Shown: positions 221-61,587 of the stretch, piece by piece
Layout of the letters: each line of letters begins with the position of its first letter
Numbering within the stretch: the stretch's first letter is position 1
DNA from: Acholoe squamosa
Taxonomy: Eukaryota > Annelida > Polychaeta > Phyllodocida > Polynoidae
NCBI GenBank assembly: GCA_949317995.1
Contig: OX439050.1
Location: 22,398,061-22,462,060 of the forward strand
DNA length: 64,000 nt
Direction of reading: 5' to 3'
Translations under genes and position numbers: made by a program
Notes under the pieces: model-generated
The model's input: the letters and a program-made list of their open reading frames with translations, nothing else
Told to the model about the DNA's origin: nothing
The model's database searches: none

Positions 221-280
221 GTGAAATCTGTATTGACACAATATGATCCGCCTGTAGTCTTGTATGGCGTTTGCTACTGA

Positions 281-352
281 TTTTACCTCGGGAATACTTC
301 GGGTATTTCCGTAACCGATGAGATATGACCGAAGCTGGTCACGTGACGACAG
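281..352 (+). repeat. DIRS left inverted terminal repeat
   Basis: Starts TTTTACCTCGGGAATACT and ends in GGTCACGTGACGACAG. Its reverse complement matches the right repeat around 6013-6085, with mismatches clustered in the middle. The first ~45 bp are also complementary to 5734-5778 in the internal region. Confidence 0.85.
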
Positions 353-1083
353 TTTGGATCGAGCGTCCGTGTTTGGCAGACGGTTTCAAACTTCCAGGTG
401 AGTTTTTGATCGGTTTTACCCGTTTTACTGCCCTTTTCTGGGCAGTTTTTGCCCTATTTTAAGGGTTTTTGTTCTTGTTTTCCTTCTGGCCAAGGTTACG
501 CCGCTGGGGTACCTTTTTAGCGCTAGAAAATAAAGTTTTTCTCTAAAAGACGGTCGTCGTGTCGGCAGGCCGTAGAGAGATCTTACATTTTACGTATTCC
601 TGGAGGAATTCCGCTGGAATTCTCTCGATACAGGGATCTAACAGGGTTTTTGAGCATTCCCTGATGTTTGGCACCCTATTTGCCTTCAGTTTGCACCTTT
701 TTCGGGCAGTTTTGGCCGATAGCGATCGAAAAATTCTTCGTTGGGGCTCGCCGGTCACCAGCGCCGTTGTACATGTGTACCTAAAGTAGGACACGTCCGG
801 AGCTACCTAGAGTACACCTCAGCGAGTATTACATAGCGCTCGGCGAGCTTCGCCATTGTGTTACCGCTAAGTGGGTCTACTCCAGGTACATGTTTTTCTA
901 GTCCTGCTCTAAGTACATAGCGCTCGGCGAGTTTCGCCGTTGTGTTACCGCTAAGCGGGTCTACTCCAGGTACACGTTCTAGTCCTGCTCTAAGTACATA
1001 TCGCTCGGCGAGTTCGCCGTGGCATTACCGCTAAGCGGGTCTACTCCAGGTACATGTTTTCTAGTCCTGCTCTAAGTACATAG
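353..1083 (+). other. DIRS leader with consensus splice donor and tandem repeats
   Basis: No convincing ORF. A 76-codon open stretch at 559-789 resembles no DIRS protein. A perfect metazoan splice-donor consensus, CAG/GTGAGT, lies at 395-403, and the same string recurs right after the gag stop at 2586-2594. From 831 the leader consists of 81-84 bp tandem repeats that run into the start of the gag frame. Confidence 0.5.
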
Positions 1084-1170
1084 CGCTCGGCGAGCTTTGC
1101 CGTTGTGTTACCGCTAAGCGGGTCTACTCCAGGTACACGTTCTAGTCCTGCTCTAAGTACATATTGCTCG
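831..1170 (+). repeat. 81-84 bp tandem repeat, 4 units plus a partial fifth
   Basis: Units begin at about 831, 915, 996, 1078 and 1159. Each contains ACATAGCGCTCGGCGAG, then TTACCGCTAAGCGGGTCTAC, then CTAGTCCTGCTCTAAGT. TTACCGCTAAGCGG contains an inverted repeat (CCGCT/AGCGG). The last full unit forms the first ~20 codons of the open gag frame, so the repeat is partly coding or the true start is elsewhere. Confidence 0.85.
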
Positions 1171-2583: not shown

Positions 2584-2588
2584 GGCAG

Positions 2589-4478
2589 GTGAGTCCCTTC
2601 CCACTACATAACACTGTCCCATCCTTTCAAGGGGGTAACATTCTGAAGTGTGCTGATGCTTGGTTTAAACTCACCAAGGACCCTTGGATCTTAGCCATGT
2701 CTCAGGGTGTCACCATTGACTTTAATGCCTTACCATCCCAGGACTGGGTGCCTCCTCCATATAAACTTGATCCAGTAGAGGTGGCCTTTATGGATAAGGA
2801 AGTAGAGAAAATGGTAGCTAATGGTATTATTGAGTTTACAGTACATGAACAGGGCGAATTCATTTCCAATGTTTTCCTGCGTCCCAAGCCTAATGGGGAT
2901 TACAGGCTTATATTGGATTTGACAGATATGAACAAGCAGGTCATGTATGAGCATTTTAAGATGGCCTCCCTACAAACTGCTGTGGACCTTGTCACCCCTA
3001 ATTGTTTTATGGGGAGTGTAGATTTAAAGGATGCCTATTACTCTATTCCTGTACGAGAAGATTATCGTAAATTTCTGAAGTTCAGGTGGAATGGGGTCCT
3101 CTACCAGTTTGTAGGGATGCCAAACAGTCTTTCATGTGCACCAAGAGTATTCACTAAGTTGCTCACTCCCCCCTTCGCAAAGCTAAGGGAGGAGGGACAC
3201 ATCTGTTTCCCCTACATTGACGATTCTTTTATTATGCATGAGTCAAAAGAAGGTTGTGAGCAATCTATCAGAAGAGTGTGTGAAACCCTGGATCGGTTAG
3301 GCTTTGTAATTCACCCAGATAAGTCAGCCTTTGTAGCCTCGCAAAGGGTGATCTTCTTGGGTTTTTGGATTGACTCTATGGATATGTCTATATATCCAAC
3401 TCAGGAGAAGGTAGACAAATTCATGTCAGATTCCTACTTGCTGCTGGGGAAAGTCAAGCCAAAAATCAGGGAGGTTGCATCTCTCATAGGTCTTATGGTA
3501 GCTTACTCGGCAGGAGTTCAATATGGGCCTGCACATATTAAAGGACTTGAGAAATGCAAGAATGAGTGGTTAGCCTACCGAAAAGGGAATTTTGATGCAA
3601 AAATGGTACTTTCCAAGGATGCTATACAGGACATACTATGGTGGCAAGCCAGCATACCAACTGCTAAGAAGGCACTGGATGTAGGTCCACCAGAGTTTGA
3701 ATTGTATACGGATGCATCGGATGACGGCTGGGGTGCACACAGGGGGAACGTCAGAACTAATGGCAGATGGCTTCCCTCTGAGGTGGACTTCCACACCAAC
3801 ATCCACGAGACCATGGCAATAGAATATGGGCTAAAATCGTTGTGTAAAGTGAGAGGGGCTCATATTAGGGTCATGACAGATAATACCACGGCACTTGCAT
3901 ATGTGAGACATATGGGAGGGCTGCAGTCTCCAATGTGTAATCTGGTATCAAGAAACATCTGGAACTGGTGTGAGTCTAGAGGGATCTGGTTGACAGCGGC
4001 TCATGTGCCGGGAGTGGATAATGTCATCGCTGATCATGAGTCACGCCATTTCCAAGATGAGATTGAGTGGGAGATAAATGACTCAATTTTTGAAATCATT
4101 TGTGAAAGGTTTGGGAGGCCTCAGGTGGACATGTTCGCCTCTAGAACAAATTGTAAAGTTCAATGTTTTGTGTCACGTAGGCCAGAACCAGAAGCATGGA
4201 AAGTTGACTCTTTCTCATTCACATGGCCTAATAAGCTCTTATATTGTTTTCCTCCGTTCAGCATTGCAGGCCGAGTGCTTCAACGCATATTGAGGGCAGG
4301 GGCAAGGGCAATCCTCGTGATGCCGGATTGGGAGAGTCAACCCTGGAAGGCAAAAGCCCACAAGTATGCGGTGGACTACGTACGGTTCTGCAAGAGAAAG
4401 AACAACCTACTACCTCATGGGGCCCCTACAAGCCTACAGTTCATAGGAAGTCTACCAATTATAGCTTTCCTTTTCTGA
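2589..4478 (+). CDS. pol: DIRS reverse transcriptase-RNase H, with a C-terminal methyltransferase-like region
   Basis: 629 codons. RT: fingers and palm about residues 60-260, with VDLKDAYYSI (motif A, catalytic Asp), GMPNSLSCAPRVFTKL (motif B) and the intact catalytic box YIDD at residues 209-212. RNase H follows from about 365: ELYTDAS (Asp375), HETMAIEYGL, MTDNTTAL and HVPGVDNVIAD carry the expected acidic residues and the late His. After it, from about residue 500, PQVDMFASRTN, DSFSFTW and FPPF resemble the region after RNase H in DIRS elements that has been compared with phage Dam methyltransferases; I infer that by pattern. The start shown is GTG, and the frame is open upstream inside gag in the -1 phase, so expression as a gag frameshift product or from a spliced RNA is likely. 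It overlaps the recombinase ORF by 235 bp. Confidence 0.9.
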   Translation: MSPFPLHNTVPSFQGGNILKCADAWFKLTKDPWILAMSQGVTIDFNALPSQDWVPPPYKLDPVEVAFMDKEVEKMVANGIIEFTVHEQGEFISNVFLRPKPNGDYRLILDLTDMNKQVMYEHFKMASLQTAVDLVTPNCFMGSVDLKDAYYSIPVREDYRKFLKFRWNGVLYQFVGMPNSLSCAPRVFTKLLTPPFAKLREEGHICFPYIDDSFIMHESKEGCEQSIRRVCETLDRLGFVIHPDKSAFVASQRVIFLGFWIDSMDMSIYPTQEKVDKFMSDSYLLLGKVKPKIREVASLIGLMVAYSAGVQYGPAHIKGLEKCKNEWLAYRKGNFDAKMVLSKDAIQDILWWQASIPTAKKALDVGPPEFELYTDASDDGWGAHRGNVRTNGRWLPSEVDFHTNIHETMAIEYGLKSLCKVRGAHIRVMTDNTTALAYVRHMGGLQSPMCNLVSRNIWNWCESRGIWLTAAHVPGVDNVIADHESRHFQDEIEWEINDSIFEIICERFGRPQVDMFASRTNCKVQCFVSRRPEPEAWKVDSFSFTWPNKLLYCFPPFSIAGRVLQRILRAGARAILVMPDWESQPWKAKAHKYAVDYVRFCKRKNNLLPHGAPTSLQFIGSLPIIAFLF

Positions 4479-5449
4479 GGCGATGCCTCCAAAAGGAAGG
4501 GTATGACAAGGCTTCCATTGACCTTATGATAAAAGCTTGGAGACCATCTACAAGGAAACTTTATACGACTTACATAAACAAATGGATAGTTTTCTGTGTT
4601 GAACGGGGTTATAACTGGATGAAGGGCACTATGCCACAAGTGTGTAAATTTATGAGAACTTTGTATGACTCGGGAGTAGGTCACGGAGTTATGAATGTGG
4701 CACGATGTGCTTTGGGAACCCTGTTACCACAGGTAGATGGGGCGCCTATCGGGCAACATCCAAACATTTGCCATATGGTGAAGGGTACATACGAAGATAG
4801 ACCTAGTGGACCAAGGTATGACACGTTTTGGGACGTTACAAAGGTATTCAAGTTGTTCAAAAGTTGGGGGGATAACAGTTCTTTGTCACTTAAGAAGTTA
4901 TCATTGAAACTAGCTGTCTTGATTTTGCTTGTCACATCTCAAAGAGGGCAGACAATCTTAGCGTTAAGGACAGATGAACTGTCTTGGGAAGACAGGAATG
5001 CTGTCTTCAGACTCAGTACTCTGTTAAAGTCTAACAGAGTGGGTGACCCCTTAAACACTGTGGTCTTGAGACCCTACATACTAAATGAAAAGCTCTGTGT
5101 GGTCAGCACCCTCAAGGCATATCTCACTAGGAGGCAAAAGGTCCATGAAAAGTCTGAACGACTTAGGAGGAAGCTGAACCTTCCACCTCTTAAAAATCCA
5201 CTGCAGCTCCTTATGAGTTACATTTCGCCTCATGACGGAATCAGTAGGGATACCCTGGCCAGGTGGACCATTGCCACTCTAGACATGGCTGAGATTGACA
5301 CTTCACGTTGGAAGGCCCACTCTACTCGGGGGGCCTCAGCTTCAGCTTCCACCAAGGTAGGATCCTGCTTAAATGCCGTAATGCGCCTGGCAGGGTGGAA
5401 GTCAGCTGACTCATATCGAAAATTCTACAACAAGCCCATCGAAGGTTGA
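4244..5449 (+). CDS. DIRS tyrosine recombinase (YR)
   Basis: 401-codon open frame encoding the recombinase expected to integrate the circular DNA copy. The first ~75 codons overlap the RT ORF in another frame. The protein proper seems to begin near FPFLRRCLQKEGY. A helical core-binding domain follows (about 80-200). The catalytic domain shows Arg234 in TSQRGQT, His359 and Arg362 in HSTRGAS, Trp385 in GWKSAD, and a Tyr at 391 or 395 in SYRKFY. That completes the R-H-R-(H/W)-Y set, so the enzyme looks intact. There is no ATG before about residue 93, so a -1 shift from the RT frame, internal initiation or splicing must supply the N-terminus. The stop is TGA at 5447-5449, about 290 bp before the internal complementary region. 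Confidence 0.9.
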   Translation: MFSSVQHCRPSASTHIEGRGKGNPRDAGLGESTLEGKSPQVCGGLRTVLQEKEQPTTSWGPYKPTVHRKSTNYSFPFLRRCLQKEGYDKASIDLMIKAWRPSTRKLYTTYINKWIVFCVERGYNWMKGTMPQVCKFMRTLYDSGVGHGVMNVARCALGTLLPQVDGAPIGQHPNICHMVKGTYEDRPSGPRYDTFWDVTKVFKLFKSWGDNSSLSLKKLSLKLAVLILLVTSQRGQTILALRTDELSWEDRNAVFRLSTLLKSNRVGDPLNTVVLRPYILNEKLCVVSTLKAYLTRRQKVHEKSERLRRKLNLPPLKNPLQLLMSYISPHDGISRDTLARWTIATLDMAEIDTSRWKAHSTRGASASASTKVGSCLNAVMRLAGWKSADSYRKFYNKPIEG

Positions 5450-5733
5450 TACAGAGCATGTAGCTACAAACTTGCTGAGACTAGAAGATTAGTTTTTCTT
5501 GAACGTTCAAATGTATGGGTTATCTGGTGTATGAATTGCATTGGTTGGTTATTTGACTACTCCAGATTACTAGTGTATTGTGCTTTAACCAAGTTGGTTA
5601 TGATAAAGGTCAGAAAATTAAAGGTGTTGAATTGATTCTGTTTTGGTCTTGGTTAATTATTAAATTGATAATAATTGAGAATTATTGATAATAGCCAAAA
5701 ATCTTTATGACTAGAAAAACACATTGGCTTTCA
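5450..5733 (+). other. DIRS 3' non-coding segment
   Basis: AT-rich stretch between the YR stop and the internal complementary region. I see no ORF and no clear AATAAA signal. It includes a short inverted AT motif (ATTGATAATAATTGAGAATTA) around 5650-5690. Confidence 0.4.
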
Positions 5734-5878
5734 ACATCTCATCGGTTACGGAAATACCAGAAGTATTCCCGAGGTAAAATTTTGGAATTTTGGGAAACTT
5801 ACCGTAGGGTACCGGAGGGAAGTTGAAGTAAAACTTCTTATTTTACCGAGGGAATACGGGGTATTGGAGGAACAGATG
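5734..5878 (+). repeat. DIRS internal complementary region (ICR)
   Basis: 5734-5778 is the reverse complement of the left terminus (from 281), with one or two mismatches. 5779-5878 is the reverse complement of the right terminus (about 6040-6139), essentially perfect. The two halves abut, so this is an inverted copy of the joined ends, as described for DIRS-1 and used in the single-strand circularisation model. Confidence 0.9.
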
Positions 5879-6654
5879 CCCTTCCCACCCTACCCGTATT
5901 CTTTCGAGGTTATTATTATTATTATTATTAAAAATTGAAAGGTCTAATCTGGTTGTTTCCAGAAACTTGTGTGTGTTTTTCTACTCATAAGATTTTAGGT
6001 TTTCAAGTCTGTCGTCACGTGACCAGCTTCGGTCGTATCTCATCTGTTCCTCCAATACCCCGTATTCCCTCGGTAAAATAAGAAGTTTTACTTCAACTTC
6101 CCTCCGGTACCCTACGGTAAGTTTCCCAAAATTCCAAAATATGGCTCTAGATCCCTAAAATAGCCATGGTGACATGAGCCTTTTTTTTTTGGCTTAGTGA
6201 CATGGCCAATTCCTTAAAAAATCGACAAAGGGACATGCCCTTTTCTTAAAATCGACACAGGGACATGCCCTTCCCACCCTACCCGTATTCTTTCGAGGTT
6301 ATTATTATTATTATTATTAAAAATTGAAAGGTCTAATCTGGTTGTTTCCAGAAACTTGTGTGTGTTTTTATACTCATAAGATTTTAGGTTTTCAAGTCTG
6401 TCGTCACGTGACCAGCTTCGGTCGTATCTCATCTGTTCCTCCAATACCCCGTATTCCCTCGGTAAAATAAGAAGTTTTACTTCAACTTCCCTCCGGTACC
6501 CTACGGTAAGTTTCCCAAAATTCCAAAATATGGCTCTAGATCCCTAAAATAGCCATGGTGACATGAGCCTTTTTTTTTTTGGCTTAGTGACATGGCCAAT
6601 TCCTTAAAAAATCGACAAAGGGACATGCCCTTTTCTTAAAATCGACACAGGGAC
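5876..6654 (+). repeat. 389-bp tandem duplication of the DIRS right end and flank
   Basis: Two near-identical copies, 5876-6264 and 6265-6654 (one extra T in the second), each beginning at ATGCCC. A third ATGCCC at 6655 closes the second copy. Each copy holds the (ATT)n stretch, the right ITR (6013-6139 and about 6402-6528) and about 125 bp of downstream sequence. Confidence 0.9.
6013..6139 (+). repeat. DIRS right inverted terminal repeat (first copy)
   Basis: Begins CTGTCGTCACGTGACCAGC, complementary to the inner end of the left repeat. It continues through CCTCGGTAAAATAAGAAG to TTCCCAAAATTCCAAAA at the element end. A second copy lies at about 6402-6528 in the duplicated unit. Confidence 0.85.
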
Positions 6655-6687
6655 ATGCCCATTTATTAAAATTGAAATATATGACAT

Positions 6688-16157: not shown

Positions 16158-17990
16158 ATGTATCTATCGTACTGGCTCCATATGGCTGTTGTAGGCCTCA
16201 GATATCCTGTTTACAAGCTCTGTATGGCTGGTAAAACCCTCAAATATGTGTACCAGCTCTGTCTCACTATTGTAGACTTGTGTATGCCCTCTGTTGTACC
16301 AGCTCTGTCTGACTGCTGTAGACTTGTGTATGCCCCATGTTGTACCAGCTCTGTCTGACTGTTGTAGACTTGTGTATGCCCCATGTTGTACCAGCTCATG
16401 TCCTACCAGCTCTATATGGCTGTTGTAGACCTGTGTATGCCCCATGTTGTACCAGCTCCATATGGCTGTTGTAGACTCGTTTATGCCCCTCACTGTACCA
16501 GCTCATGTTGTACCAGCTCTATATGTCAGTTATAGACCTGTGTATGCCCCATGTTGTTCCAGCTCCATATGGCTGTTGTAGACCTGTGTATGCCCCATAT
16601 TGTACCAGCTCATGTTGTACCAGCTCTATATGGCCGTTGTAGACCTGTGTATGCCCCATGTTGTACCAGCACCATATGGATTTTGTAGACCTGTGTATGC
16701 CCCATGTTGTACCAGCTGTATATGGATTTTGTAGACCTGTGTATGCCCCATGTTGTACCAGCTCTATATGGCTGTTGTAGACCTGTGTATGCCCCATGTT
16801 GTACCAGCTCTATATGGCTGTTGTAGACCTGTGTATGCCCCATGTTGTACCAGTATTATATGGCCGTTGTAGACCTGTGTATGTCCCATGTTGTACCAGC
16901 TGTATATGGCCGCTGTAGACCTGTGTATGCCCCATGTTGTACCAGCTCTATATGGCTGTTGTAGACCTGTGTATGCCCCATGTTGTACCAGTATTATATG
17001 GCTGTTGTAGACCTGTGTATGCCCCATGTTGTACCAGCTGTATATAGCTGTTGTAGACCTGTGTATGCCCCATGTTGTACCAGTATTATATGGCCGTTGT
17101 AGACCTGTGTATGTCCCATGTTGTACCAGCTGTATATGGCTGTTGTAGACCTGTGTATGCCCCGTGTTGTACCAGTATTATATGGCCATTGTAGACCTGT
17201 GTATGCCCCATGTTGTACCAGCTGTATATGGCCGTTGTAGACCTGTGTATGTCCCATGTTGTACCAGCTGTATATGGCTGTTGTAGACCTGTGTATGCCC
17301 CATGTTGTACCAGTATTATATGGCCGTTGTAGACCTGTGTATGTCCCATGTTGTACCAGCTGTATATGGCTGTTGTAGACCTGTGTATGCCCCATGTTGT
17401 ACCAGTATTATATGGCCGTTGTAGACCTGTGTATGTCCCATGTTGTACCAGCTGTATATGGCCGTTGTAGACCTGTGTATGTCCCATGTTGTACCAGCTG
17501 TATATGGCTGTTGTAGACCTGTGTATGCCCCATGTTGTACCAGCTGTATATGGCCGCTGTAGACCTGTGTATGCCCCATGTTGTACCAGCTGTATATGGC
17601 CATTGTAGACCTGTGTATGCCCCATGTTGTACCAGCTGTATATGGCTGCTGTAGACCTGTGTATGCCCCATGTTGTACCAGCTCCATTTGGCTGTTGTAG
17701 ACCTGTGTATGCCCCATGTTGTACCAGCTCTATATGGCTGTTGTAGACCTGTGTATGCCCCATGTTGTACCAGTATTATATGGCCGTTGTAGACCTGTGT
17801 ATGCCCCATGTTGTACCAGCTCCATAGGGCTGTTGTAGACCTGTGTATGCCCCATGTTGTACCAGTATTATAATTATATAGCTGGTGTAACTGAGAAAAG
17901 AAAGGACTAATGTCCAAGAACAACAGTCCCTTGCTGGACCTGTGTATGTCCCATGTTGTACCAAGTCTATATGGCTGTTGTAGACATGTG
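16158..17990. repeat. 46-bp minisatellite, about 38 units
   Basis: Unit: TTGTAGACCTGTGTATGCCC, CATGTTGTACCAGC, then a variable TCTATATGGCTG-like segment. Variants (GTCCC/GCCCC, GTATTATATGG/CTGTATATGG) are ordered into 92- and 138-bp higher-order units: CAGTATTATA recurs at 16851, 16989, 17081, 17173, 17311, 17403, 17771 and 17863, all multiples of 46 apart. The minus strand is open in several frames for up to 225 codons because the unit lacks stops. These peptides (repeated MGHTQVYN, WGIHRST) are not supported as proteins. Confidence 0.95.
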
Positions 17991-18429: not shown

Positions 18430-19780
18430 CCATTTAGCCCCTGGACATAAAGCACCTGGTCAATACTGATGTACTGAGGTACACTGATGTACATTGACTT
18501 ACACTGATGTACAATACTGATGTACTGCTGTAAATCACCATCCTGCTGACATACTGGAGGCGCTGCTGACTTACTGGAACCACTGATGAAGTACCGCATA
18601 CTGGAGGCACTGCTGATGTACTTTAGGCACTGCTGATGAACTGGAGGCACTGATGACATAATAATGATGTATGGTAACGTATGATGACGTACTGGAGGCA
18701 CTGAGGATGTAATAATGACGTATGATGACATACTGGAGGCACTGGTGAAGTACTGGAGGCACTGATGATGTACTGGAGCCACTAATGACGTACTGGAGCC
18801 ACTGATGACGTACTAATGACATATGGTGATGTATGATGACGTACTAGAGACACTGGTGATGTACTAGAGGCACTGATGATGTTTGGTGATGTATGATGAT
18901 GTACTGGAGGCACTGTTGACATACTAGAGATACTGATGATGTATGGTGATGTATGATGACGTACTGATGATGTATGATGACATAATGATGATGTATGGTG
19001 ATGTATGATGATGTATGGTGACGTACTGATGACATATAGATGATGTATGATGATGTATGGTGATGTATGATGACGTACTGATGATGTATGATGACATACT
19101 GATGATGTATGGTGATGTATGATGATGTATGGTGACGTACTGATGACATATAGATGATGTATGATGATGTATGGTGATGTATGATGACGTACTGATGATG
19201 TATGATGACATACTGATGATGTATGGTGATGTATGATGATGTATGGTGACGTACTGATGACATATAGATGATGTATGATGATGTATGGTGATGTATGATG
19301 ACGTACTGATGATGTATGATGACATACTGATGACATACTGATGATGTATGATGACGTACTGATGATGTATGATGACATACTGATGATGTATGATGATGTA
19401 TGATGATGTATGATGACATACTGATGATGTATGATGATGTACTGATGATGTATGATGACATACTGATGATGTATGATGACATACTGATGACATACTGATG
19501 ATGTATGATGACATACTGATGATGTATGATGATGTGTGGTGACGTACTGGTGACGTATAGATAATGTATGATGATGTACGATGACGTACAGTGACTATGA
19601 TGACGTATGGTGATGTACAGTGATGTACGGTGAGGTGACTTATGATGTTGTACTGTTCCTATATATATATATATGTGAGTAAAACTGAAGTATTGTGAGG
19701 TCCGATGGCGTATGGTGACGTACGATGGTGTATGATGATGTACAATGACATACGGTTTATACTTGTGCGAGTTAAAAAAA
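18430..19780. repeat. GATGTATGATGA-type minisatellite with a 114-bp higher-order unit
   Basis: Built from degenerate 9-12 bp words (GATGATGTATGATGACATAC and relatives). Between about 19031 and 19373 a 114-bp block beginning GACATATAGATGATG is repeated three times (19031, 19145, 19259). The first part (18430-18930) is more diverged and contains TACTGGAGGCACTGATGA words. The minus strand is open for up to 341 codons (Ser/Ile/His/Tyr-rich), which I treat as a by-product of composition. Confidence 0.9.
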
Positions 19781-32169: not shown

Positions 32170-32368
32170 GTGAGGTTATATGCCCATCATGCCCATTGGT
32201 CGTCATGATGGACCAATCAGACTGCTCGCCAGCACTTCATTGGAGCATCATGCCGACCCTGCAGGAGTTTGTCGGCATGGCGCATGAATGTAACTCGCCA
32301 GGGCTGCATTCATGCATCATGACGACTACTGGGCATGATGCATTAATGCATCAGCAGCCCATAAAGGG
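32170..32368. mobile_element. TTAA-type palindromic MITE, partial copy
   Basis: Contains CATCATGCCCATTGGTCGTC and its inverse, CAGGGCTGCATTCATGCATC, and ends AAAGGG next to a TTAA at 32369-32372. The left terminus is degraded. Confidence 0.7.
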
Positions 32369-46159: not shown

Positions 46160-47985
46160 ATATGCTTGAATAGGGAATATAACAAGCATAGCAAGGTTTT
46201 TCTTTCTGAGGCATGGTAGTAAATACATCATTGAGGCTGAGAGGGTTCTTTTTATAAAAAAACAAACAAAAAACAAACAAAAAAAAACACAAAAGCAGTT
46301 ACACAAGCGTGTCCTTGTATAGACAAGAGCTTGAGGCATTTCACACCTACGTCAAGCTTTTTAGGTGCTCCAACATAGATCTTTCTTAACATCTATGTTC
46401 TCTGCCTGGGGTCTCTCTTACATTTACATGTAGATGATAATAAGTATAATTCTTTCCCAGAATGAGCATACTGGTGTATCTTGCAAATGAAATTTACTTT
46501 TAAAATACTGTGTGTGTTAAATGAATAACAGGGAACAATTTCAGAACTTGTATTTGTAGCATCCTAATGCACGAGGAATAGATTTACAACAAACAAAATC
46601 CACCAAATCCCATGTAAATGTGAAAACCTTAAGGGTGGTTATGTAAATTTTTCCTTGGCCTATTAGTTTTATCTTGTGCCTTAATCTCAAAGTTCATGCA
46701 GTATACAAGAAATAGAGTATATTACTCTGGTTAGAAGATTTAGTTGAACACAAAGGATGAATGATCGTCCATGTCAGGGCATTCAACCTCAACTGAGATA
46801 GGTCTCCATAATTATGACTATACCTGATCCTTTTATGTCTAAAGTCACAATCTTAGACAGGATCTACCTAACATGACTAAGGGGCTCTGAAAGGCGGAAG
46901 TACATGACTATCAGATAATCTAGTACATGTCAATCCTCTAAGTGCCACATAGTACTTAAATCTTATACTCTTCACACAAAAAATGTAGGATGGCTAGGGT
47001 CTTCTAAATGAACAGCATAAAATAAACGAGTTAAAACCCGTCAACGTGAACGTGTCTGCCCTGGCACAGACTCTTCATCCTGATGATTTTATAAATATGG
47101 CTTGGGCGGAGGGCCTTACCTGACGACCCTAAAGCTGTCAACATAGGCATAGAGGTTGTTTTGCCTCGTTTTTTTCTTCTAATGCAAGCAGTTTTATGCT
47201 GCTCACTTTAATGACCCCATTTTATCAGTGCATTATGCATTTATGCATTACGCCGAGCATTATCGGATTATTTCACTGCTAGGGATTAGCATGATGTTCC
47301 AATACTATACTGGCGAGAACTGTATCGGTGAATCAAGCCAACAAAGTGTTATGGATTTTGAGGCATTATATGACCTTAAAAGTGTTATCTATGTTGACTT
47401 ATACATGTAAGGAGTCTTGTAGATTTGCTCCTAATGATGTATTCAATATACTATAATACACTTTGTCCATAAAGGCTGCCTGCAGCTCTACCTACTGAAT
47501 GGCTGGAGGCACTTGTGGAAAGATACACCTGGAGATAGTCTTGGTAGCCAAGTGTGCATTGGAATGGTTCAGAACTTATATATGAGTGACCTATATTTAT
47601 TTCATAGTTCAAACGTCTAAGATACCTCCAAAATATGGATTTATGTACAGAACAGTGGTCAAGGAGGGAACCATGGAGACTCTTACAGGTAGGCCAGTAT
47701 TTTGGTATACCATCATAATACCTCGCGTATAAGGTTCACCTAAATCGCGTATAAATAAGGAACACCCCCGACTTACACCCAGCTTATAAGGTGCACCTGG
47801 AGTGATTTTGATGTTGTTCTATAGTTTGAAATCCTCACCATATAAGCTGCACCCCTAACTTTTGCTCGGGCGCAGTAAGGGTCCATCGTCACGTATAACC
47901 AATGCCAGATTTGATAGTAAATGGCACCTCATCGGTGAATCATGACAACCAAGGAACATCAACCTTGAGGCAATTATACAACTCT
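46160..47985. other. Non-coding tract with a decayed GTATAAGG-type repeat
   Basis: 47720-47890 (CTCGCGTATAAGG, CTTATAAGGTGCACC, CATATAAGCTGCACCC) is a diverged member of the family seen at 42417-43576 and 62839-63010. No gene is seen elsewhere in the interval. Confidence 0.4.
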
Positions 47986-48022
47986 TAGCCCTTTCTGAGC
48001 CACTGATGCATTAACGTATCAT
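47986..48022. repeat. Left part of a TTAA-type MITE split by the Ngaro element
   Basis: TAGCCCTTTCTGAGCCACTG followed by ATGCATTAACGTATCAT matches the left arm of the family. The right part continues at 53637. Confidence 0.75.
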
Positions 48023-48191
48023 TACTGCATCAGCTTGGCTAAAGAAAGGAGGTGGGAGGCAGGACTTGGAGAAATAAAACAAAGTTTATTACATTTGTTG
48101 TTATATGAGATAACAAATGAACATTTTGTTTATACAATAAAAGACATGGTATTGTATGACAAGGTAAAAAGATGTATAAAATAGTAAATGC
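48023..48191 (-). repeat. Ngaro B2 repeat
   Basis: 169 bp, from TACTGCATCAGCTTGGC to AAAATAGTAAATGC. It is nearly identical to B1 (two substitutions seen). It marks the downstream end of the element. Confidence 0.9.
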
Positions 48192-48247
48192 TGTAATATG
48201 AGAGGTAAATGAAATGAAAATTAAAAGAAATAGGTGTGGGTGGGTGG

Positions 48248-48458
48248 GAAAATTGAGATGTTGACAGTGGAATGGCGGTGAGGTGAATGGACTGAGAGTT
48301 TGTTGGTGAGCGGTGAAGGGGTGTGGACAAATGTTGGGTGTAGTAAATGGTACCTATACCAAAGTATAGGTGGGGATGTAGTGTTGTGATGGTTTGAGGG
48401 TTAGCCACCAGCTGGCAGCAATGACCACCCCTTCGCCCATTCAGGCTCATGAGTTACC
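48248..48458 (-). repeat. Ngaro A2 repeat
   Basis: 211 bp, from GAAAATTGAGATGTTGAC to CAGGCTCATGAGTTACC. It is joined through CAT (48459-48461) to B1. The small ORFs on either strand here are by-products; the same frame appears in A1. Confidence 0.9.
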
Positions 48459-48461
48459 CAT

Positions 48462-48630
48462 TACTGCATCAGCTTGGCTAAAGAAAGGAGGTGGGAGGCA
48501 GGACTTGGAGAAATAAAACAAAGTTTATTACATTTTTTGTTATATGAGATAACAAATGAACATTTTGTTTATACAATAAAAGACATGGTATTGTATGACA
48601 AGGTAAAAAGATGTATAAAACAGTAAATGC
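48462..48630 (-). repeat. Ngaro B1 repeat
   Basis: 169 bp copy of B2 lying between the YR ORF and A2. Confidence 0.9.
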
Positions 48631-48725
48631 CAAGCCTGCAAGGTAAGAGGTGTGGGTGGGTGGGTGTGAAATTATATTTAAGGTGTATGAATTGATATAC
48701 GTGAGAAATGTTTGTGTGATGACAG

Positions 48726-49745
48726 TCACTTATGTTGCATTGCTTGTATGAGTTTGAGATTAACCGAATTGTTGGATTTTGTGACAATGTAGGTCTTATA
48801 TGCGTCTGATTTCCAATCCGCATATCGTTGGACATCCAGTTCTGTGGCTCCTGCCACTACGGCCTCAGTTGCCGCTGTCACCCTAAGGCAGTGGAGGGTA
48901 TATGTGTCCTCGGGGATTCCTAGGTCCACCAGGCCCCTTACCCAGTGCTTCCTCACTTCCGAGGTGGGGACCGGTTCCCTTGTTCTTGGGAACATAAACA
49001 AGGGGTCTGTCTTGTATATTGTCGGGGTGTCTGTGTACATCTGTGTCACGGCGCTCACTACACAGGTCTCCTGGTGCTCTGAGGCCATCATGTGCAGCAG
49101 TCTTGACTCTCCAGTTTTCTGGAGTGTCTTTCCTGACTTGATCATGACACTGATGGAATTGTCTGTTCTGTAGATATCGCCTCTTGTGAGGTGGTATGTA
49201 GCGGAGAACTTGGCCTTTGATGGCGGCGTGACCTCCCCTGGGCGGAGGGCCCCGTAGTACTGGACCAACAGGGCTGCCCTTATTACATTGTTGAGTGGGG
49301 AGCCATGGAGTCTTATCACAATTGGTCTCAGTATATCCATTGGGACTGATTTCTTGACCTTGGGGACATATTTCTTGTTTCGATTTATGGCATCCATTGC
49401 CCTGGTTACGCGCATGTGAGTCATGGGATATTGCCGGCCTGTCACCAGGGAGACATGCACGCGAGCATGTGACATATAGTTCCTTATGGTTGCTGGTGGT
49501 TTGAGGTGGAGGGCCAGATACTCTAGATATGTACATACCAGGCTGTGGTGGACATTGTATGGGTCTGCCTGGACCCACCACATGAATCCCAGGAATGTCG
49601 ACGCCCCTATCCTGTTGTTGCGCTGCGTGCCTTGGGCTCGTGCTGCCGCCTGCCGCTCTGATGCTTTCTGCTGTAGGGAGTACACTGCCGGATCTGCAAG
49701 TGATATTAGGGGACAGTTTATGAAGTATGTCGGTACGAGGAACAA
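48726..49745 (-). CDS. Ngaro tyrosine recombinase (YR)
   Basis: 339-codon frame encoding the recombinase expected to integrate the circular DNA copy. An N-terminal core-binding region (about residues 40-140) is followed by the catalytic domain: Arg168 in YYGALRPGEV, His285 and Arg288 in LHCLRVTA, Trp311 in YADWKS and Tyr316 or Tyr319 in AYKTYIV, so R-H-R-(H/W)-Y is complete. The frame opens just after a TAA near 49770 and has no ATG before about residue 54, which lies inside the domain. The coordinate given is a TTG. The start must therefore come from a +1 shift out of the RT frame, splicing or non-ATG initiation. The RT frame stays open across 863 bp of this ORF. Confidence 0.9.
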   Translation of the reverse strand: MFLVPTYFINCPLISLADPAVYSLQQKASERQAAARAQGTQRNNRIGASTFLGFMWWVQADPYNVHHSLVCTYLEYLALHLKPPATIRNYMSHARVHVSLVTGRQYPMTHMRVTRAMDAINRNKKYVPKVKKSVPMDILRPIVIRLHGSPLNNVIRAALLVQYYGALRPGEVTPPSKAKFSATYHLTRGDIYRTDNSISVMIKSGKTLQKTGESRLLHMMASEHQETCVVSAVTQMYTDTPTIYKTDPLFMFPRTREPVPTSEVRKHWVRGLVDLGIPEDTYTLHCLRVTAATEAVVAGATELDVQRYADWKSDAYKTYIVTKSNNSVNLKLIQAMQHK

Positions 49746-51222
49746 CAGGTAACAGGTTATTTGACATTATCAAATGGTGAGCTTCTTTGAGATATGAATC
49801 ATTAATGTGAGCCCAGCTCAACCTGTCAGCAATAAGATTGTCTACACCGGGTACATGAGCATAAGTGATATGAATGTCAAGTCTGGCCTGTAATAACCAT
49901 GCTTTCCTGGCGGCATCTAGTATTACTTTGTTACGCCCCCTTCCTGTGGTGAATACTGCCACTGACCCTTCATTATCACAATGGACTTTAATATGCATGC
50001 CCCTATGTGATTCATCAGTAAGGGTTTCTAGTGCTACTGCTATGTTCGCTGCTTCAAGTTCACTTATGCATTCCACGGGGTCCTTCATGTGCGCCACCTG
50101 TTGCCAGTATGCCTTGGCGCCATCCGTGGCACCAATACCTGTGAGGCAAGCATCTACATAAATATGGCGGTCAGCATGTAGGTGTGGGATAATGGCTACT
50201 CCATTCCAGTCTTGCACGAAGTCAATGAACCACCTCAGGTCCGACTTCATTTCACTGTTCACATTAATGTAGAAATGTTTCATGTTTCGCAATGCCTCCA
50301 GCAGTTTGCTAACAAACAGGCGGGCAGGGTGAACACACTTTGCAATATGTAACAACCGGCCTAGTAGTGATTGCAGTGTCTTTTTAGTGATAGATCTCTT
50401 TTTAATAACCCAGCGTACCTGGTCAAGTACTTGGCGCAACTTGTCACTTGGTACTGAGAGGGTCATGTCGACGGTATTTACATTTATGCCTAACCACCTG
50501 ACAATTGTGGAGGGGGGTTGGGCTTTGTCCACGGCCTCCATCAGGCCCAATTCTGCGAACAGCTGTCTTGCCCGCTGGAGTTGGCGCTGTGCGGTGACCT
50601 CATCTGGTGAAATAATTATTAAGTTGTCTAAATACATGTGACATGTTATATCCTCCGCTCTCAAGATTCTAACAATTGCCATGGCCACACGTTGCATACT
50701 AGCACTAGATGCTCTGGCCCCGAAGGGCAATGTTGTGTCACAATAGTACCTGCCCTCCCACATCATACCCAAAAGGGGGAGGTCCAGAACATCAGACGAG
50801 AAGTGTTTGTATGCCCTACTGAGGTCGGCTGTACTGAGTACACATCCCTGCCCCATGGCTATAATATCATTTACTAACAGATCCACCATTGGTAGTGAAT
50901 GTTGCCTCATTTTTCCACACACAGTATTCTTCTGAATGTACGCATTAACTGATGACTGTCTAGGGAAAGTCATATCAATGATGACTCGGCGATCAGCTGA
51001 GTCCCTCTTTTCTCGCGTCATCAATGGTGACACGTGCATCCATTCATCGAATAGCGGCCTATCAAAGGGACCTATGATACCTCCTAACTTGAGCTCTTTT
51101 TGAATGAATTTTGATACACTATCAGGATGCATTTTTGTGCTAGGGTGGTTGGGGACGCCTTTAGTGTCAGATGTAGGTCCTATGTATCCCATCGGGAATC
51201 CGAACCGTATATAATCTAACAA
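49746..51222 (-). pseudogene. pol: Ngaro reverse transcriptase-RNase H, main part
   Basis: The open frame begins upstream of 51222 and stays open to 48883; the recognisable protein ends near 49760. RT: RVIIDMTFP, STADLSRAYKHF (catalytic Asp region), LPFGARASSASMQRVAMAI, and the catalytic box reads YLDN (residues 197-200 counted from 51222) where RTs normally have YxDD. RNase H: HIYVDACLTGIGA (Asp357), ISELEAANIAVAL, VHCDNEGS and HVPGVDNLIADRLS retain the acidic residues. No methyltransferase-like tail, unlike the DIRS element. The N-terminus is cut off by a one-base frameshift near 51265. With the YLDN change this copy is unlikely to make active RT, so I mark it as a pseudogene. It is otherwise free of stops. 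Confidence 0.85.
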
Positions 51223-51245
51223 CTCCTGCTCATCTGCGTCATTGT

Positions 51246-51878
51246 CTAGATAATTTTCCCATGCTGGAATATTGTGGGAAGTGGTATTCTAGCACCCATT
51301 GCATTTGGTATCCCTGTGGCTCGAACTATTTCATATATACGGGCCCATTCTCCCTTAACAGAGTCATTTATCCGTGGCCAGTTGTCTATCCTGTGCTGTG
51401 CGAAGGCTTTTGGGCTTAAATCTACCCCGAGACCCGAATGCTTGCCTTCACACACTAATTTAACGACATCAAAGTCCGGGTTCATACCTGAATGTGGCGA
51501 GTTGTGTCGGCCCCGGTTGGCACTAGTCGGTGAGTCGGAATGTGCACTGGTGGTGCCCTCCGGTGCCAAGTCTAGGCACGAGATGTCACTAAGTCGGGCC
51601 GGCCATGACAAACGGTGTCCTGTCTTTATGGGAGTACTATTCCATGGTGCTGCGGCTGTTAATGTTCCAATAATTGAGTCATAATCAGATACAAATGGCC
51701 CTTTGATTGTATGAGGGGCACAGAGGCCGCCATTTTGGATCTCGCCCAACGTCTCGGCGCCGACGAGATGTGGCCCTGCACCAATGAGCGCGTTTTTGTC
51801 CATAGCGCAGTGAGTGGGCGGGGCCATGACGTCAGAGTTGTTTATGTTTTGGCGCTGCGCACATGGCGGAGGGAGCAC
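51246..51878 (-). pseudogene. Ngaro RT ORF, N-terminal part, frameshifted from the RT
   Basis: 210-codon frame between gag and RT. Its end, TGIPNAMGARIPLPT, is the conserved lead-in to the RT fingers of such elements. About 15 bases after that block it runs off-frame to a TAG, while the frame continuing as IPAWENYLD leads into the main RT ORF. One base seems lost near 51265. The N-terminal ~140 residues (Ser/Thr/Pro/His-rich) show no domain. No other function is suggested. Confidence 0.75.
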
Positions 51879-51925
51879 GTGGCGAGCTGTGGAGTACAGA
51901 GTCTTAGTATAGGCGGGCGCTGGTT
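51760..51925 (+). promoter_or_regulatory. GC box plus CRE-like palindrome inside the Ngaro element
   Basis: GTGGGCGGGGCCATGACGTC at 51814-51833 combines an Sp1-type GC box (GGGCGGGGC) and TGACGTCA-like bases; the surrounding 165 bp is CpG-rich. It lies between gag and RT, overlapping the start of the RT N-terminal frame. It could be an internal or antisense promoter; this is inference only. Confidence 0.3.
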
Positions 51926-51955
51926 GGTCATAGTGTAGACATTCAGCGCCCGAGA

Positions 51956-53191
51956 TTAGTTTTTTGCGGGTCCTGGCTGGTTGGGAGGATGGACATTGTG
52001 AGAAACCATGCCCTTAGGGTTCTGTGGGTTGCCGGGTTGATGTGTGTGGGTCGATTCGAACATCTTGTTGTTACATGCAATTACGTTGTGTGGCAATTGT
52101 TTGCCCTTCCCATAACAGAATGCACAAACATGTAAGAATCTCACACCCGGGGCATCATGATGTGATTTCTGCTTGCATCCCTTGAGCTGATTGAACTCCG
52201 GGCATGTGACCAAGATCTTACCATTAGTGTTACCAACTGTCCCGGTATTTGGCTGATTTAGTCTTTCCTGTTCCATCGGAGCAAAACAAAGATGGAACCG
52301 GGCATTTTGAATTAGTTGGTATTTGTCCCACTGAAGGTTTTTCTTTTCCACCTCATCAAATACATGCTGTGACCATGCTAGAACATTCCTCCATGGTCGT
52401 GTGAGTGAGTCTGACGATACCTCATATAGATGTTTCGAGATGTGGGCCTGATCCTTTGGGTCAAAGGCCTGTGGGTTCTGAAGTAGTGCTATTAAGGCAT
52501 TTATGTATTCACCACTTTTCAGGGAGCTTCTAACTGCTAGCTTTTCTTTGAGTGTACGTACCCCTTCTCTTTCTACAAACATGATTGGTTTGCCAATGAG
52601 CTTGTCATTATAAATGTCAGTAATGAAAGGGTTCTTACCCTCCGTGGGTGTGTGGGACATATCCTCTCTACGTATGCAGGCATCTATGAAGTTGGCAGCG
52701 GCAGGCAGCTGCCGTAATTCAGCTGGTGGTGGTATCTGCCCGCCACGTGCCACAGTACCTGCAGCACCAGATGGCTGTGCATATATGGATCCAGCCATAG
52801 TACCCTGATTACCTATGCTACCTGCGCCCTGTGTGTGAGGTTGGCCGGTGGTTACCTGGTCCTTCTGGGCTACGCTCACCAGTAGTGCTAGTTGTGTGGT
52901 GACGGTGTCCATTGTAGCTTTAACACCTTGAATATCACTCCTCATGATATTTACGTCAGATTCTAATGAGTCCAATCTAAACACAGCAGAACCAGACAGA
53001 CTGTTGATGCTACTGGAGTTAGAGTGGTTTGACCTTGCCGTAGAGTGACGGGACCTCCGGGACCTCGTGTTGTTCTGAGAACCATTTACTGATGTGGGGG
53101 CCCGGTCAACAGTTATAAACGATATGTCCGGATCTGTGGAGCTAGTCCCAGACAACTGCTGGGACATGTCATTGTTGGAAATTGCAGACAT
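51956..53191 (-). CDS. gag: Ngaro gag-like protein (ORF1)
   Basis: Open frame from 53305; the first in-frame ATG is at 53191, used here (411 codons). As the first ORF after the A1 repeat it is expected to be the RNA-binding gag-like protein. Visible: a Ser/Arg/Asn-rich N-terminus (NNTRSRRSRHSTARSNHSNS), a coiled-coil-like SLESDVNIMRSDIQGVKATM stretch, a middle region with PAAANFIDACIRREDMSH and EKKNLQWDKYQLIQNARF, then a Cys/His cluster: CPEFNQLKGC, KSHHDAPG, FLHVCAFCYGKG, which fits the zinc-binding region of Ngaro gag-like proteins. An ATG in another frame near 53265 opens only about 25 codons. Stop at 51956-51958. Confidence 0.8.
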   Translation of the reverse strand: MSAISNNDMSQQLSGTSSTDPDISFITVDRAPTSVNGSQNNTRSRRSRHSTARSNHSNSSSINSLSGSAVFRLDSLESDVNIMRSDIQGVKATMDTVTTQLALLVSVAQKDQVTTGQPHTQGAGSIGNQGTMAGSIYAQPSGAAGTVARGGQIPPPAELRQLPAAANFIDACIRREDMSHTPTEGKNPFITDIYNDKLIGKPIMFVEREGVRTLKEKLAVRSSLKSGEYINALIALLQNPQAFDPKDQAHISKHLYEVSSDSLTRPWRNVLAWSQHVFDEVEKKNLQWDKYQLIQNARFHLCFAPMEQERLNQPNTGTVGNTNGKILVTCPEFNQLKGCKQKSHHDAPGVRFLHVCAFCYGKGKQLPHNVIACNNKMFESTHTHQPGNPQNPKGMVSHNVHPPNQPGPAKN

Positions 53192-53425
53192 ATTAGACCG
53201 TGCTAGTGACCTCCGCGTGGTCTGGGAGCGTCCTAGACCTTGTGGAGGAATTTTCCGTCGTAGACATTTTGCCTGCAAGAGTTGGTGAATAAGACACCTC
53301 GCCAATTCCTATATCCCAATATAAATTAAATACTACCTTAATAATGTAGGCCTGATAAAAGAGGTGATATTGTAGTTAAAAGTCCATGTATATGGTGGCC
53401 AAAAGGTGTATGATTGCACTGGATT

Positions 53426-53636
53426 GAAAATTGAGATGTTGACGGTGGAATGGCGGTGAGGTGAATGGACTGAGAGTTTGTTGGTGAGCGGTGAAGGGGT
53501 GTGGACAAATGTTGGGTGTAGTAAATGGTACCTATACCAAAGTATAGGTGGGGATGTAGTGTTGTGATGGTTTGAGGGTTAGCCACCAGCTGGCAGCAAT
53601 GACCACCCCTTCGCCCATTCAGGCTCATGAGTTACC
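53426..53636 (-). repeat. Ngaro A1 repeat
   Basis: 211 bp, matching A2 with about one substitution (GACGGTGGAA against GACAGTGGAA). It marks the upstream end of the element; the CAT at 53637-53639 adjoins the interrupted MITE. Confidence 0.92.
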
Positions 53637-53836
53637 CATGCCCATTAGTCATCATGATGCAGCCCTGGTGAGTAACTTGCCTGGGCTACATTCATGCATC
53701 ATGCTGACCCTACAGGGCTGATACAGTCCCAGAGAGTCAGCATGAAGCTCCAATGAAGTGCTGGCGAATAGTCTCGCCAGCACGTCATTAAACGATGGGC
53801 ATCATGCACTCCTGCATCAGTGGCCTTTAAAGAGTC
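53637..53836. repeat. Right part of the TTAA-type MITE split by the Ngaro element
   Basis: CATGCCCATTAGTCATCATG through CTCCTGCATCAGTGGCC and TTTAAAGAGTC. It continues the left part at 47986-48022. Confidence 0.75.
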
Positions 53837-55287
53837 AAGAATTCTATGGTGTGAAAATATCAAAAGCACCAAGTGTCATAGAGCAATTGTACGACCAAAG
53901 CTGTCTTCCTTCCTTTACTTACATATGAAAATACTCTCTTACTCTCTTCTCTTTCATATCATGTCATTTACCATATATAGCATGTTGTCTATAATCAACC
54001 AGTACGTGCAAAAGATTACATGATTGAGAGGTAGCAAAAGCATAACAAGAGGCATGTAAATACATTCACAATATATGAATAGTGGTCAGGGTTATTAATT
54101 GATAGGGCCAAATTCAAAATACACCCGTGTCACTTGTCTTCTAATAGTAGAATATTCTTGCTGAAATCACTATACCTTGGCTTGAAAAAAAATGTAATTT
54201 GTGAAAAAAAAACACGTCATCTGTTCATGAGATATCTTGGATTTTCTTTATAATGATAAGCAATCCTCAGGCATAAGTGATGTTGAACCTTTTTTTTCTG
54301 ATTATTATTTAGACCCAAGTGAAAATCTTTAAGTGTTAAGTATGGTCTTCTTATTATACTCGGCTTTGTGTGTTTGTACGTGTTTCCTACAAATGAAGGT
54401 TAGGGCTCTTCAGGCTATGGCACACCTGAAGTGTGTAAAGCCATTCATGTTGGGTGAATGTACTCTTAGGGACTGGCCATTTTTCCACACAAGGATGGTG
54501 GCGATGGTATATCTCATGAACATGCGAAATTCCGCCCCCCCCCCCCAAAAAAAAAAAGAAAAGGCTGAGAACTTTGAGGGGGTTTGGGAGGGGCAAGGGG
54601 GCAAAAATCACATGGGCACTTTGCAACCTCCCACCTGTCCAAAAGCAGGGGTTGATTTATTTTTGCACCCCAACCCTCAAATCCACTACCCAAACTAATC
54701 AAAACATGGCCAGTCCCTTATTCCAACTAACCTTTTAATTATGAAGGTTGGCCGGAGGTTAGAGGAGTTCTCAGCAGTAGTTAGTTTGAAAATCAATGTG
54801 ATTTAGCCCCAGGCAAAGAACAGAAGTATACATCGATACTAAAGTCACTCTTGTGGATTTGAATTAGTAGTTCATATTCATCCTATATATGATTTAAATA
54901 GCCAAGGAACGCATAGAAAAATAAGAAAAGGTCATGTATCGTATCAAGTGTTTATGACTAATTTCCTAACACGTAAACTAGTCAAATAACCTTTCAAAAA
55001 TATGAATTCCTTTGAACGCATGTAGTTTATAATAACAGATCATGTAAGGTGAGAAAGAAATATGGTATTTGTGAACAGGAGTCCATCTGTTTGTAGTGTG
55101 TATGATTTAGAGTAAAAGATTGAGTCACCTTTATTTTACCTTTACAGACATGCAAACATATCATTTCATTGAGGTAGGCGTGGCTGGGCATCATCCCCCC
55201 CCCTTAGTCAGGGACTCAGTGTGTGGTGATTTACATTCCTCTCCCACACATGCATATGTCTTTCTACACTGATAACCACACAAAGAG
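53837..55287. other. Non-coding tract
   Basis: Only a C-run/A-run at 54533-54557 stands out. The open frames at 54333-54702 on both strands derive from it and show no domain. Confidence 0.35.
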
Positions 55288-55291
55288 TTAA

Positions 55292-55551
55292 CCCTTTGAG
55301 AGCTGCTGATGCAGGAGTGCATCATGCCCATAGGTCGGCATGATGCGTCCACTGAAGTGCTGGCGTGTCTGCTCGCCAGCACTTCAGTTGAGCATCATGC
55401 TGAATGGTAGTGGGAGTGAATTAACCCCATACTAGGGTCGGCATGTTGTAATGTAGCCCTGGTGAGTTATTCAGACAGGGCTGTATTAATAATGCATCAT
55501 GATAACCAGCAATGGGCATGATGCATAAATACATAAGTGGCCCTCAAAGGG
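55292..55551. mobile_element. TTAA-type palindromic MITE, best complete copy (260 bp)
   Basis: CCCTTTGAGAGCTGCTGATG at the left, preceded by TTAA (55288-55291); GTGGCCCTCAAAGGG at the right, followed by TTAG. Both halves are internally palindromic (GCATCATGCCCA/TGGGCATGATGC; CTGGCGTGTCTGCTCGCCAG). TTAA flanks and CCC...GGG ends recall piggyBac-type MITEs. No ORF. Confidence 0.8.
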
Positions 55552-60600: not shown

Positions 60601-61238
60601 ATTTAACAATGGAATAGAATTCACTACCATTCATTGATAGTATTTACAAACTTTAGTGATCTGTTCTTCATGAAAACAAAATGACACAGATACATCAAAT
60701 GTCTCAAGTGTTGGTAGTACTTCTTGGTAGTGATTAATCCTGGTATCAAAGTGGTTGTTTGCCCCATCTATTGGAATATTCTAGAACAATTATGTATGTC
60801 AAACCATCACATGTCAAGTGCCTTCGACATGGCCGTGACCCTAGTCAACTCACAGATAACATGACATTTTAAAGCATGTCAAATCATAGGAGGATTACTG
60901 TGTGCTACAGTTGTCATGGTGACATATGTGCATATGTCCTAATGATGTTTGCTCTCTGTGTCAAATCAAGTTGACATGGGTATACTTGCCACTTTGTCAG
61001 GAAGACTTTTTTCAGTGTGTATACCTTTCACTGTTTAATTAAGATATGAACTAACATACTTGTCATGTATTATTTGTTTGTCAAATATAGTCAACAAGGA
61101 AATAGGAAAACTAAAAGTAGCACTCTTTATACACTCATGTAATTTTCACGTGCACCCCTTTTTCAATAGAGAAGAGAAAATGATAAAATGCAGTGGAACT
61201 TAAGGAGTGCAGGCTCATGTTCCCTTTTCATTAGTTGT
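57690..61238. other. Non-coding tract of about 3.5 kb
   Basis: Contains a GA-rich microsatellite at 59548-59615 (GAGAGAGACAGAGAGAGA). Small ORFs at 57956-58261, 58433-58747 and 59869-60222 have no recognisable domain; I do not call them. No RNA gene is seen. Confidence 0.35.
59548..59615. repeat. (GA/CAGA)n microsatellite
   Basis: Runs of GAGAGA interrupted by CAGA and GGGA. The Leu/Ser-rich minus-strand frame across it is a by-product. Confidence 0.85.
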
Positions 61239-61239
61239 A

Positions 61240-61587
61240 TCCATGCAGTCTACTCCCCATCATTGGTGCATCATACCGACCCTTCAGGAGTGTATCAATC
61301 CCATAGGGTCGGGATAACCTGCAGGGATGTCACTTGTGGTCATGTATCATAGTGACTAAGGAGCAGTGCATGATTTACACTTTAAGGGCCGCTGCTGCAC
61401 TAATGCATCATGCCCATTGGTAGTTATGATGCGTGAATGCAGCCATGGTGAGTAACTCACCAGGGCTGCATTCATGCCTCATGCCTACAGGGTTAATACA
61501 CCCCATACCTGACTGTCAGCATGACCCAATGAAGTGCTGGCGAGCAGACTCGCCAGCCCTTCTGCATCAGTGGCCATTGAAAGGTTA
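61240..61587. mobile_element. TTAA-type palindromic MITE, fragment plus a longer copy
   Basis: A fragment at 61240-61330 (ATTGGTGCATCATACCGACC) and a fuller copy from 61383 (GGCCGCTGCTGCACTAATGC) through CTGGCGAGCAGACTCGCCAG to GTGGCCATTGAAAGG before TTAA. Confidence 0.65.

Follow-up and report, generated by a model that had tools for sequence, protein, structure and literature searches.

Ngaro retrotransposons carry split direct repeats, with the internal repeat pair lying 3' of the tyrosine recombinase (YR) open reading frame (ORF); the layout A1-ORFs-B1A2B2 has been described in passages on Cafeteria burkhardae (PMC8547959) and Xenopus (PMC9210276). For DIRS1-like elements, a published model requires circle and target to share an identical short core: a 3-bp circular junction recombines with an identical genomic sequence, and no target duplication is made (PMC3266345). 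The mechanism of DIRS-1 itself has been called experimentally not fully proven (PMC5633606). Here we examine a Ngaro-type (split-direct-repeat) retrotransposon at positions 48020-53639, with its ORFs on the minus strand, in a 64,000-nucleotide stretch of the Acholoe squamosa genome (hereafter the window; C16:22398061-22462060 in a 1.48-Gb genome of 63 contigs). Many insertions and paralogous empty sites within this one genome separate the letters of the element from those of the target, and reveal a strict polarity: the left CAT is brought by the element and, judged from the empty sites tested, the right trinucleotide is the target's. We put at about 0.68 the probability that the element's circle joins precisely at its CAT, that a single strand's join is inherited or the join is blunt, and that little core identity is needed; the odds are set at this level because the target origin of the right end was tested directly in only three informative insertions.

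Layout of the element and its insertion site

Read on the plus strand, the repeats and coding region run A-B-A-ORFs-B, equivalent to A1-ORFs-B1A2B2 on the coding strand, with the internal pair 3' of the YR ORF as in Ngaro. The net insert is 5,617 bp, and the target is a miniature inverted-repeat transposable element (MITE). The features of the element's ends and of the interrupted MITE are as follows.

48020..48191, plus strand: A repeat, outer copy, left end; 98.8% identical to 48459-48630 (2 differences in 172)
48248..48461, plus strand: B repeat, inner copy, right-end type; 99.5% identical to 53426-53639 (1 difference in 214)
48459..48630, plus strand: A repeat, inner copy; partner of 48020-48191
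53426..53639, plus strand: B repeat, outer copy; its final three bases, CAT, also belong to the target
48020..48022, plus strand: CAT, left junction; the element's first three bases, with left CAT in 22 of 23 insertions
48459..48461, plus strand: CAT, internal B-A junction, presumed circle junction; likewise CAT in the nine other elements read
53637..53639, plus strand: CAT, right junction; probably target-derived, from comparison with other insertions
47989..48019 (or 48022), plus strand: MITE left part (CCCTTT end); aligns with MITE paralogs at 61380, 55554 and 32373
53640..53834, plus strand: MITE right part, followed by TCAA at 53835-53838

Self-comparison shows both repeat homologies stopping exactly at CAT trinucleotides, at 48020-48022, 48459-48461 and 53637-53639, so that the initial annotation, which had placed CAT at both ends and at the internal junction, was right to the base. 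The few differences between repeat copies, 2 in 172 sites for A and 1 in 214 for B, make the window copy look recent.

The joined flanks of the insertion read GTAT-CAT-GCCCATT, and BLAST matches across this join within the window carry CAT in 7 of 7 cases. Five of these are MITE paralogs (61380-61557 on the plus strand; 55554-55288, 32373-32219 and 56404-56261 on the minus strand; and a short match at 57533, plus strand), and the two further crossing matches are opposite, inverted MITE ends (55288-55346 and 32186-32265). Global alignment of the five paralogs returned CAT in four, and 56404 did not align. An insertion inside a MITE with the empty site ATCAT, as had been claimed, is thereby confirmed, and apart from 3 ambiguous bp the window insertion shows no target duplication, again as annotated. 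The MITE left part is preceded by TTAG (47985-47988) and the right part ends in TCAA; TTAA would be expected, and on our reading the MITE ends may be of the TTAA type. A 3-bp agreement in a single copy has a chance of about 2% (CAT makes up 2.3% of window trinucleotides), and other copies were therefore needed.

Junctions and empty sites across the genome

Searches of the same genome found at least 40 places with the B repeat and at least 35 with the A repeat, both counts being lower bounds. From these we tabulated family 1, including related subfamilies, with one entry per insertion and both ends read (n=23): 8 full elements and 15 solo AB units, in which A is followed directly by B with flanks on both sides. 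Their A and B repeats are approximately 68 to 99% identical to those of the window copy. The left trinucleotide is CAT in 22 insertions and TAT in one. On the right we read AAT in 13, CAT in 7, and GAT, TAT and CTT in one each; full elements alone (n=8) give AAT in 5, CAT in 2 and TAT in 1. The internal junction is CAT in all ten elements read, which span three families (the window copy and nine others). Among the target bases of the 23 insertions, position -2 is A in 12, -1 is T in 16, +2 is A in 22 and +3 is T in every case, and the consensus is usually (A)T|NAT. Alignment of other insertions, proposed in the initial annotation as a check, shows that no trinucleotide is always common to both ends, with CAT on the left in 22 of 23 and on the right in 7 of 23.

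Several places lie outside this table. A right end only was available for L016 (CAT), L023 (CAT), L028 (CCT) and L020 (ambiguous), and a left end only for L042, L047 and L051 (CAT in all three). The matches at L040, L053, L054 and L055 stopped short of an end, and L022, L024 and L025 were merged with L021 as a single insertion. Also outside the table are the B places C17:54120114, C17:21167473 and C9:32748203, and the A places C17:40138355, C17:23462597, C5:17786799 and C3:75079932.

Solo AB units (L010, L012-L015, L017-L019, L021, L027, L044, L045, L052, L058 and L066) are commoner than full elements among the copies read at both ends, 15 against 8. Their right end is not CAT in 10 of 15, as expected if they formed by recombination between the two B copies. 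One close relative of the window element, L009 (C11:32205800-32213800), has an additional AB unit at one end (A-B-A-B-A...B) and has CAT at both internal junctions.

A genome search with the YR returned 119 scored places, including a set of near-identical copies that we call family 2, whose YR is approximately 35% identical to that of the window element. The internal junction of one copy reads GCGCACAC|CAT|TAACCC. Left ends are CAT in 17 of 17 (L095 and 16 others). Right ends were resolved in 10 of the 13 unselected copies tried; two are CAT, and the others are CAA, AAT, TAC, AAC, TAA, AAA, AGT and TGT, one each, the middle base being A in 8 of 10. The right ends of L125-L128 (CAT in 4 of 4) were excluded as biased, since these copies were chosen, from among 40 matches listed, by a BLAST match to the last base of the repeat; with them included, the right end is CAT in 6 of 14. 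A third family, represented by one copy (L096), has CAT at its left and internal junctions.

A tandem pair of family 2 copies on C13 (L132, C13:37858765-37858795) shares one junction, of the same sequence as the family 2 internal junction above, an arrangement that would follow from insertion of one copy at another's end or from insertion of a dimer. DIRS-1 is described as inserting preferentially into its own copies (PMC5633606).

Across both families the asymmetry between the ends runs one way. Among insertions whose right end is not CAT, the left end is CAT in 15 of 16 from family 1, the sixteenth being L018, and in 8 of 8 from family 2; the reverse is found in none. A sign test on these 23 informative insertions (15 from family 1 and 8 from family 2) gives p = 2.4e-7.

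Empty sites were sought in the same genome with the joined flanks of 17 insertions, in two queries (8 and 9 flanks) with 40 candidates scored in each; the joined flanks of L026 and L027, in which the core was misplaced, were left out. In the nine-flank query two segments supplied all the matches listed, and seven flanks were uninformative. Among the matches listed, 4 of the 17 joined flanks had matches crossing the join. For a full element on C1 (left CCT|CAT, right AAT|ACC), nine crossing matches were listed and all nine read CCT-AAT, followed by ACC in eight and CCC in one, at 96 to 99% identity. For a full element on C15 (left GCT|CAT, right AAT|GAT), 11 of the 31 crossing matches listed were read and all have GCT-AAT-GAT, at approximately 97% identity. 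A solo unit on C9 (left GGT|CAT, right AAT|TAT) gave seven listed matches, all of them read: five have AAT (approximately 85% identical) and two, more distant, have GAT; the filled site and all five AAT paralogs disagree at the second base before the join. The empty paralogs of these three right-AAT insertions therefore comprise 25 AAT and 2 GAT, with CAT in 0 of 27. For two solo units whose right end is CAT, the empty site is CAT as well: one empty paralog (L074) was read for the solo unit C1:101664, and one for the solo unit L015 lies at window positions 60667-61016.

Judged from these paralogs, the right trinucleotide is the target's where tested, and the left CAT is brought by the element. 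For the three right-AAT insertions the same comparison shows the inserted unit to be exactly CAT...ACC (CCC in the C15 copy), set between two adjacent bases of the target, with nothing duplicated or lost.

Proposed joining of a circle to the target

These data support precise joining at the element's CAT and would be accounted for by the following route. The internal B-A junction would template a circle reading ...ACC|CAT|TACTGC..., which the tyrosine recombinase would open immediately before CAT on the window's plus strand. The circle would then be joined to the target just before a trinucleotide that is nearly always NAT in family 1. When strands are exchanged across a spacer of 6 to 8 bp, each of the two junctions is left with a mixed core. 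A spacer of this length typically separates the arms of a tyrosine recombinase site (PMC3212892). Were such cores resolved at random, either polarity should turn up. We therefore suggest that the exchange made by a single strand is passed on, or else that the element is joined in an effectively blunt manner. The strand passed on would be the window's plus strand, which has the polarity of first-strand complementary DNA (cDNA). Identity to CAT appears not to be required at +1 in family 1 and, if the same rule holds, would not be required at most core positions in family 2.

A number of observations weigh against this reading or limit its reach. L018 reads TAT on the left and AAT on the right, and L027 has CTT on the right, without A at +2; since some family 1 copies are old, isolated deviations of this kind may have arisen after insertion. 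The alignment did not extend to every end, and several were instead set by eye from the ACC or TACTGC motif (including C6_628, C9_719, C10_122, C1_1016, C3_659, C3_308 and C5_460). In family 2, no right end could be located for three of the 13 unselected copies. Paralogs, not alleles, supplied the empty sites, those of the C9 unit being only approximately 85% identical or less. Direct tests of the target origin of the right end cover three of the 23 informative insertions, all from family 1. The one-strand step is drawn from the polarity, and biased mismatch repair or a blunt join would leave the same letters.

A more specific form of the one-strand step can be put forward tentatively: first-strand cDNA, or one strand of the circle, may be joined to one target strand, the other strand being completed by replication or repair, as in integrons. 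If true, single-strand exchange explains why one side carries the element's trinucleotide and the other the target's, and why core identity is hardly needed. Integron cassette insertion and the coupling sequences of Tn916 are cases in which tyrosine recombinases tolerate core mismatch, and integrons join one strand only; both are bacterial DNA elements, unlike Ngaro.

Among other explanations, a two-strand exchange whose heteroduplex core is always resolved alike by host mismatch repair would leave the observed letters. It demands a total bias in both families, with left CAT in 23 of 23 and none reversed, and such constant repair bias is less economical than a one-strand or blunt join; we consider it unlikely. 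A two-strand exchange through a shared 3-bp core, in which circle and target carry the identical trinucleotide, is the model stated for DIRS1-like elements (PMC3266345) and was the initial annotation's explanation of the window copy. It describes that copy and 7 of 23 insertions, and the precise insertion, the matching internal CAT and the CAT of the window copy's empty site all stand. As a family rule it fails, the right end being other than CAT in 16 of 23 family 1 insertions and in 8 of 10 unselected family 2 copies, and all 27 empty paralogs of three insertions lacking CAT (25 AAT, 2 GAT), the very finding that the annotation had named as counting against it. If paralogs stand for the target, the shared core is refuted as a general rule and could persist only in a reduced form, requiring identity at +2 (and at +3 in family 1). 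We regard it as improbable for these families; the shared CAT is a property of the window insertion site, not of the family.

That insertion aims at MITEs, through the likeness of the A end to the MITE end (TGCATCAG..TGGCT..AAAG), is very unlikely. Shuffled sequences reached the local alignment score of 26 in 6 of 1000 trials against the MITE and in 4 of 1000 against the left flank, and MITE-like sequence lies near the join in C5_115 and, by eye, in C10_659. However, 1.8% of 797 60-mers from the window, MITE copies among them, scored as high, as did 1 of 77 pieces of the element's interior; six comparisons were made, MITE copies are common in the window, and the C1 and C15 elements sit in other repeats. 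The resemblance was set aside as too weak after the shuffle test. Finally, the element might be shorter and flanked by CAT as a simple 3-bp target duplication; this reading is compatible with the window copy alone and is hardly credible given unequal flanking trinucleotides in 16 of 23 insertions and an internal CAT in 10 of 10 elements read.

Coding content and relation to known systems

The ORFs of the window element all lie on its minus strand.

48726..49745, minus strand: YR ORF, 339 aa; PF00589 at E=6.4e-4, below the curated cut-off
48883..51222, minus strand: reverse transcriptase (RT) / RNase H ORF; RVT_1 at E=8.7e-12
51246..51878, minus strand: 210-aa ORF separating the gag-like ORF from RT; all three relatives have a match (97, 42 and 35%)
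51956..53305, minus strand: gag-like ORF1, 449 aa; its Cys/His cluster is kept in all three relatives

The YR catalytic positions are present in the window copy as R (YGALRPGE), HxxR (HCLR), W (DWKS) and Y (KTY), and are kept in all three relatives read (L009, L011 and L026), where PF00589 scores E=2.3e-4, 6.1e-6 and 8.2e-6, all below the curated cut-off. A search of solved structures with the window YR gave no match up to E 0.1. The RT frame is open down to 48883 and overlaps the YR ORF below 49745; a long ORF overlap is given as usually absent in Ngaro elements (PMC3266345). Since its RT motif reads YLDN, where the three relatives have YLDD, the RT of the window copy is probably inactive. 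RNase H was seen only through alignment with the window's DIRS1-like ORF, without Pfam support, and gag-like ORF1 had no Pfam match. The RT ORF gave no methyltransferase (Dam) match, either in its first 520 aa (up to E 0.1) or over its full length (up to E 1); the window's DIRS1-like ORF gave Dam at E=0.0017, below the curated cut-off. With split direct repeats, RT/RNase H and YR on one strand and no methyltransferase match, the Ngaro-type assignment made in the initial annotation is supported. A DIRS1-like or PAT identity is not supported: no methyltransferase match was found, and in the self-comparison the repeats are direct, not inverted as in DIRS1-like elements. Two scans of viral contigs confirmed no relatives.

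The window also contains a DIRS1-like element at 280-6141, with inverted ends and internal complementary regions at 5736-5780 and 5779-5878. Its ORFs are:

1105-2583: gag-like ORF
2589-4478: RT/RNase H ORF with the weak Dam match
4244-5449: YR ORF

This element is one-sided too: its start, ATT, equals the circle junction, and its end, ATA, does not match. A 390-bp tandem duplication (99.5%) at 5876-6660 spans its right end. Long tandem arrays lie at 16249-17865 and 18465-19747 (46-bp units; 20/52/114-bp units).

The polarity described here has practical consequences. The ends of such elements can be annotated by rule, one fixed and one target-derived, and the number and order of strand exchanges become testable. 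It also carries a warning, that a single copy is insufficient for calling end trinucleotides target duplications or shared cores.

In common with the Ngaro elements of Cafeteria and Xenopus, as the passages in PMC8547959 and PMC9210276 present them, the window element has split direct repeats, a candidate gag-like ORF, RT/RNase H and YR, and no methyltransferase. Solo AB repeats are likewise reported from Cafeteria burkhardae, where the element is approximately 6 kb against 5.6 kb here. Those passages give no junction rule, whereas here the end trinucleotides differ in origin. Amphibian Ngaro elements also have a hydrolase ORF. Our literature search, which did not cover the reviews by Poulter and colleagues, where one may be in print, found no statement of polarity for Ngaro.

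DIRS1-like elements differ from the window element in having inverted repeats and a methyltransferase. Nevertheless, as described in the sections of PMC3266345 that treat their junctions, they are similar in their precise insertion, the absence of a target duplication, a trinucleotide at the internal junction and a similar one-sided pattern. Table 3 of that paper lists 28 elements, 10 of which have a start that differs from the end; on our reading, the circular junction is matched by the start alone in 7 of these, by the end alone in 1, and with no clear side in 2. The accompanying text reports a trinucleotide complementary to the junction in almost all elements and passes over the side bias without comment. 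The matching end nonetheless lies on opposite sides in the two groups, at the 5' end of the coding strand in DIRS1-like elements and at the 3' end in the Ngaro families described here.

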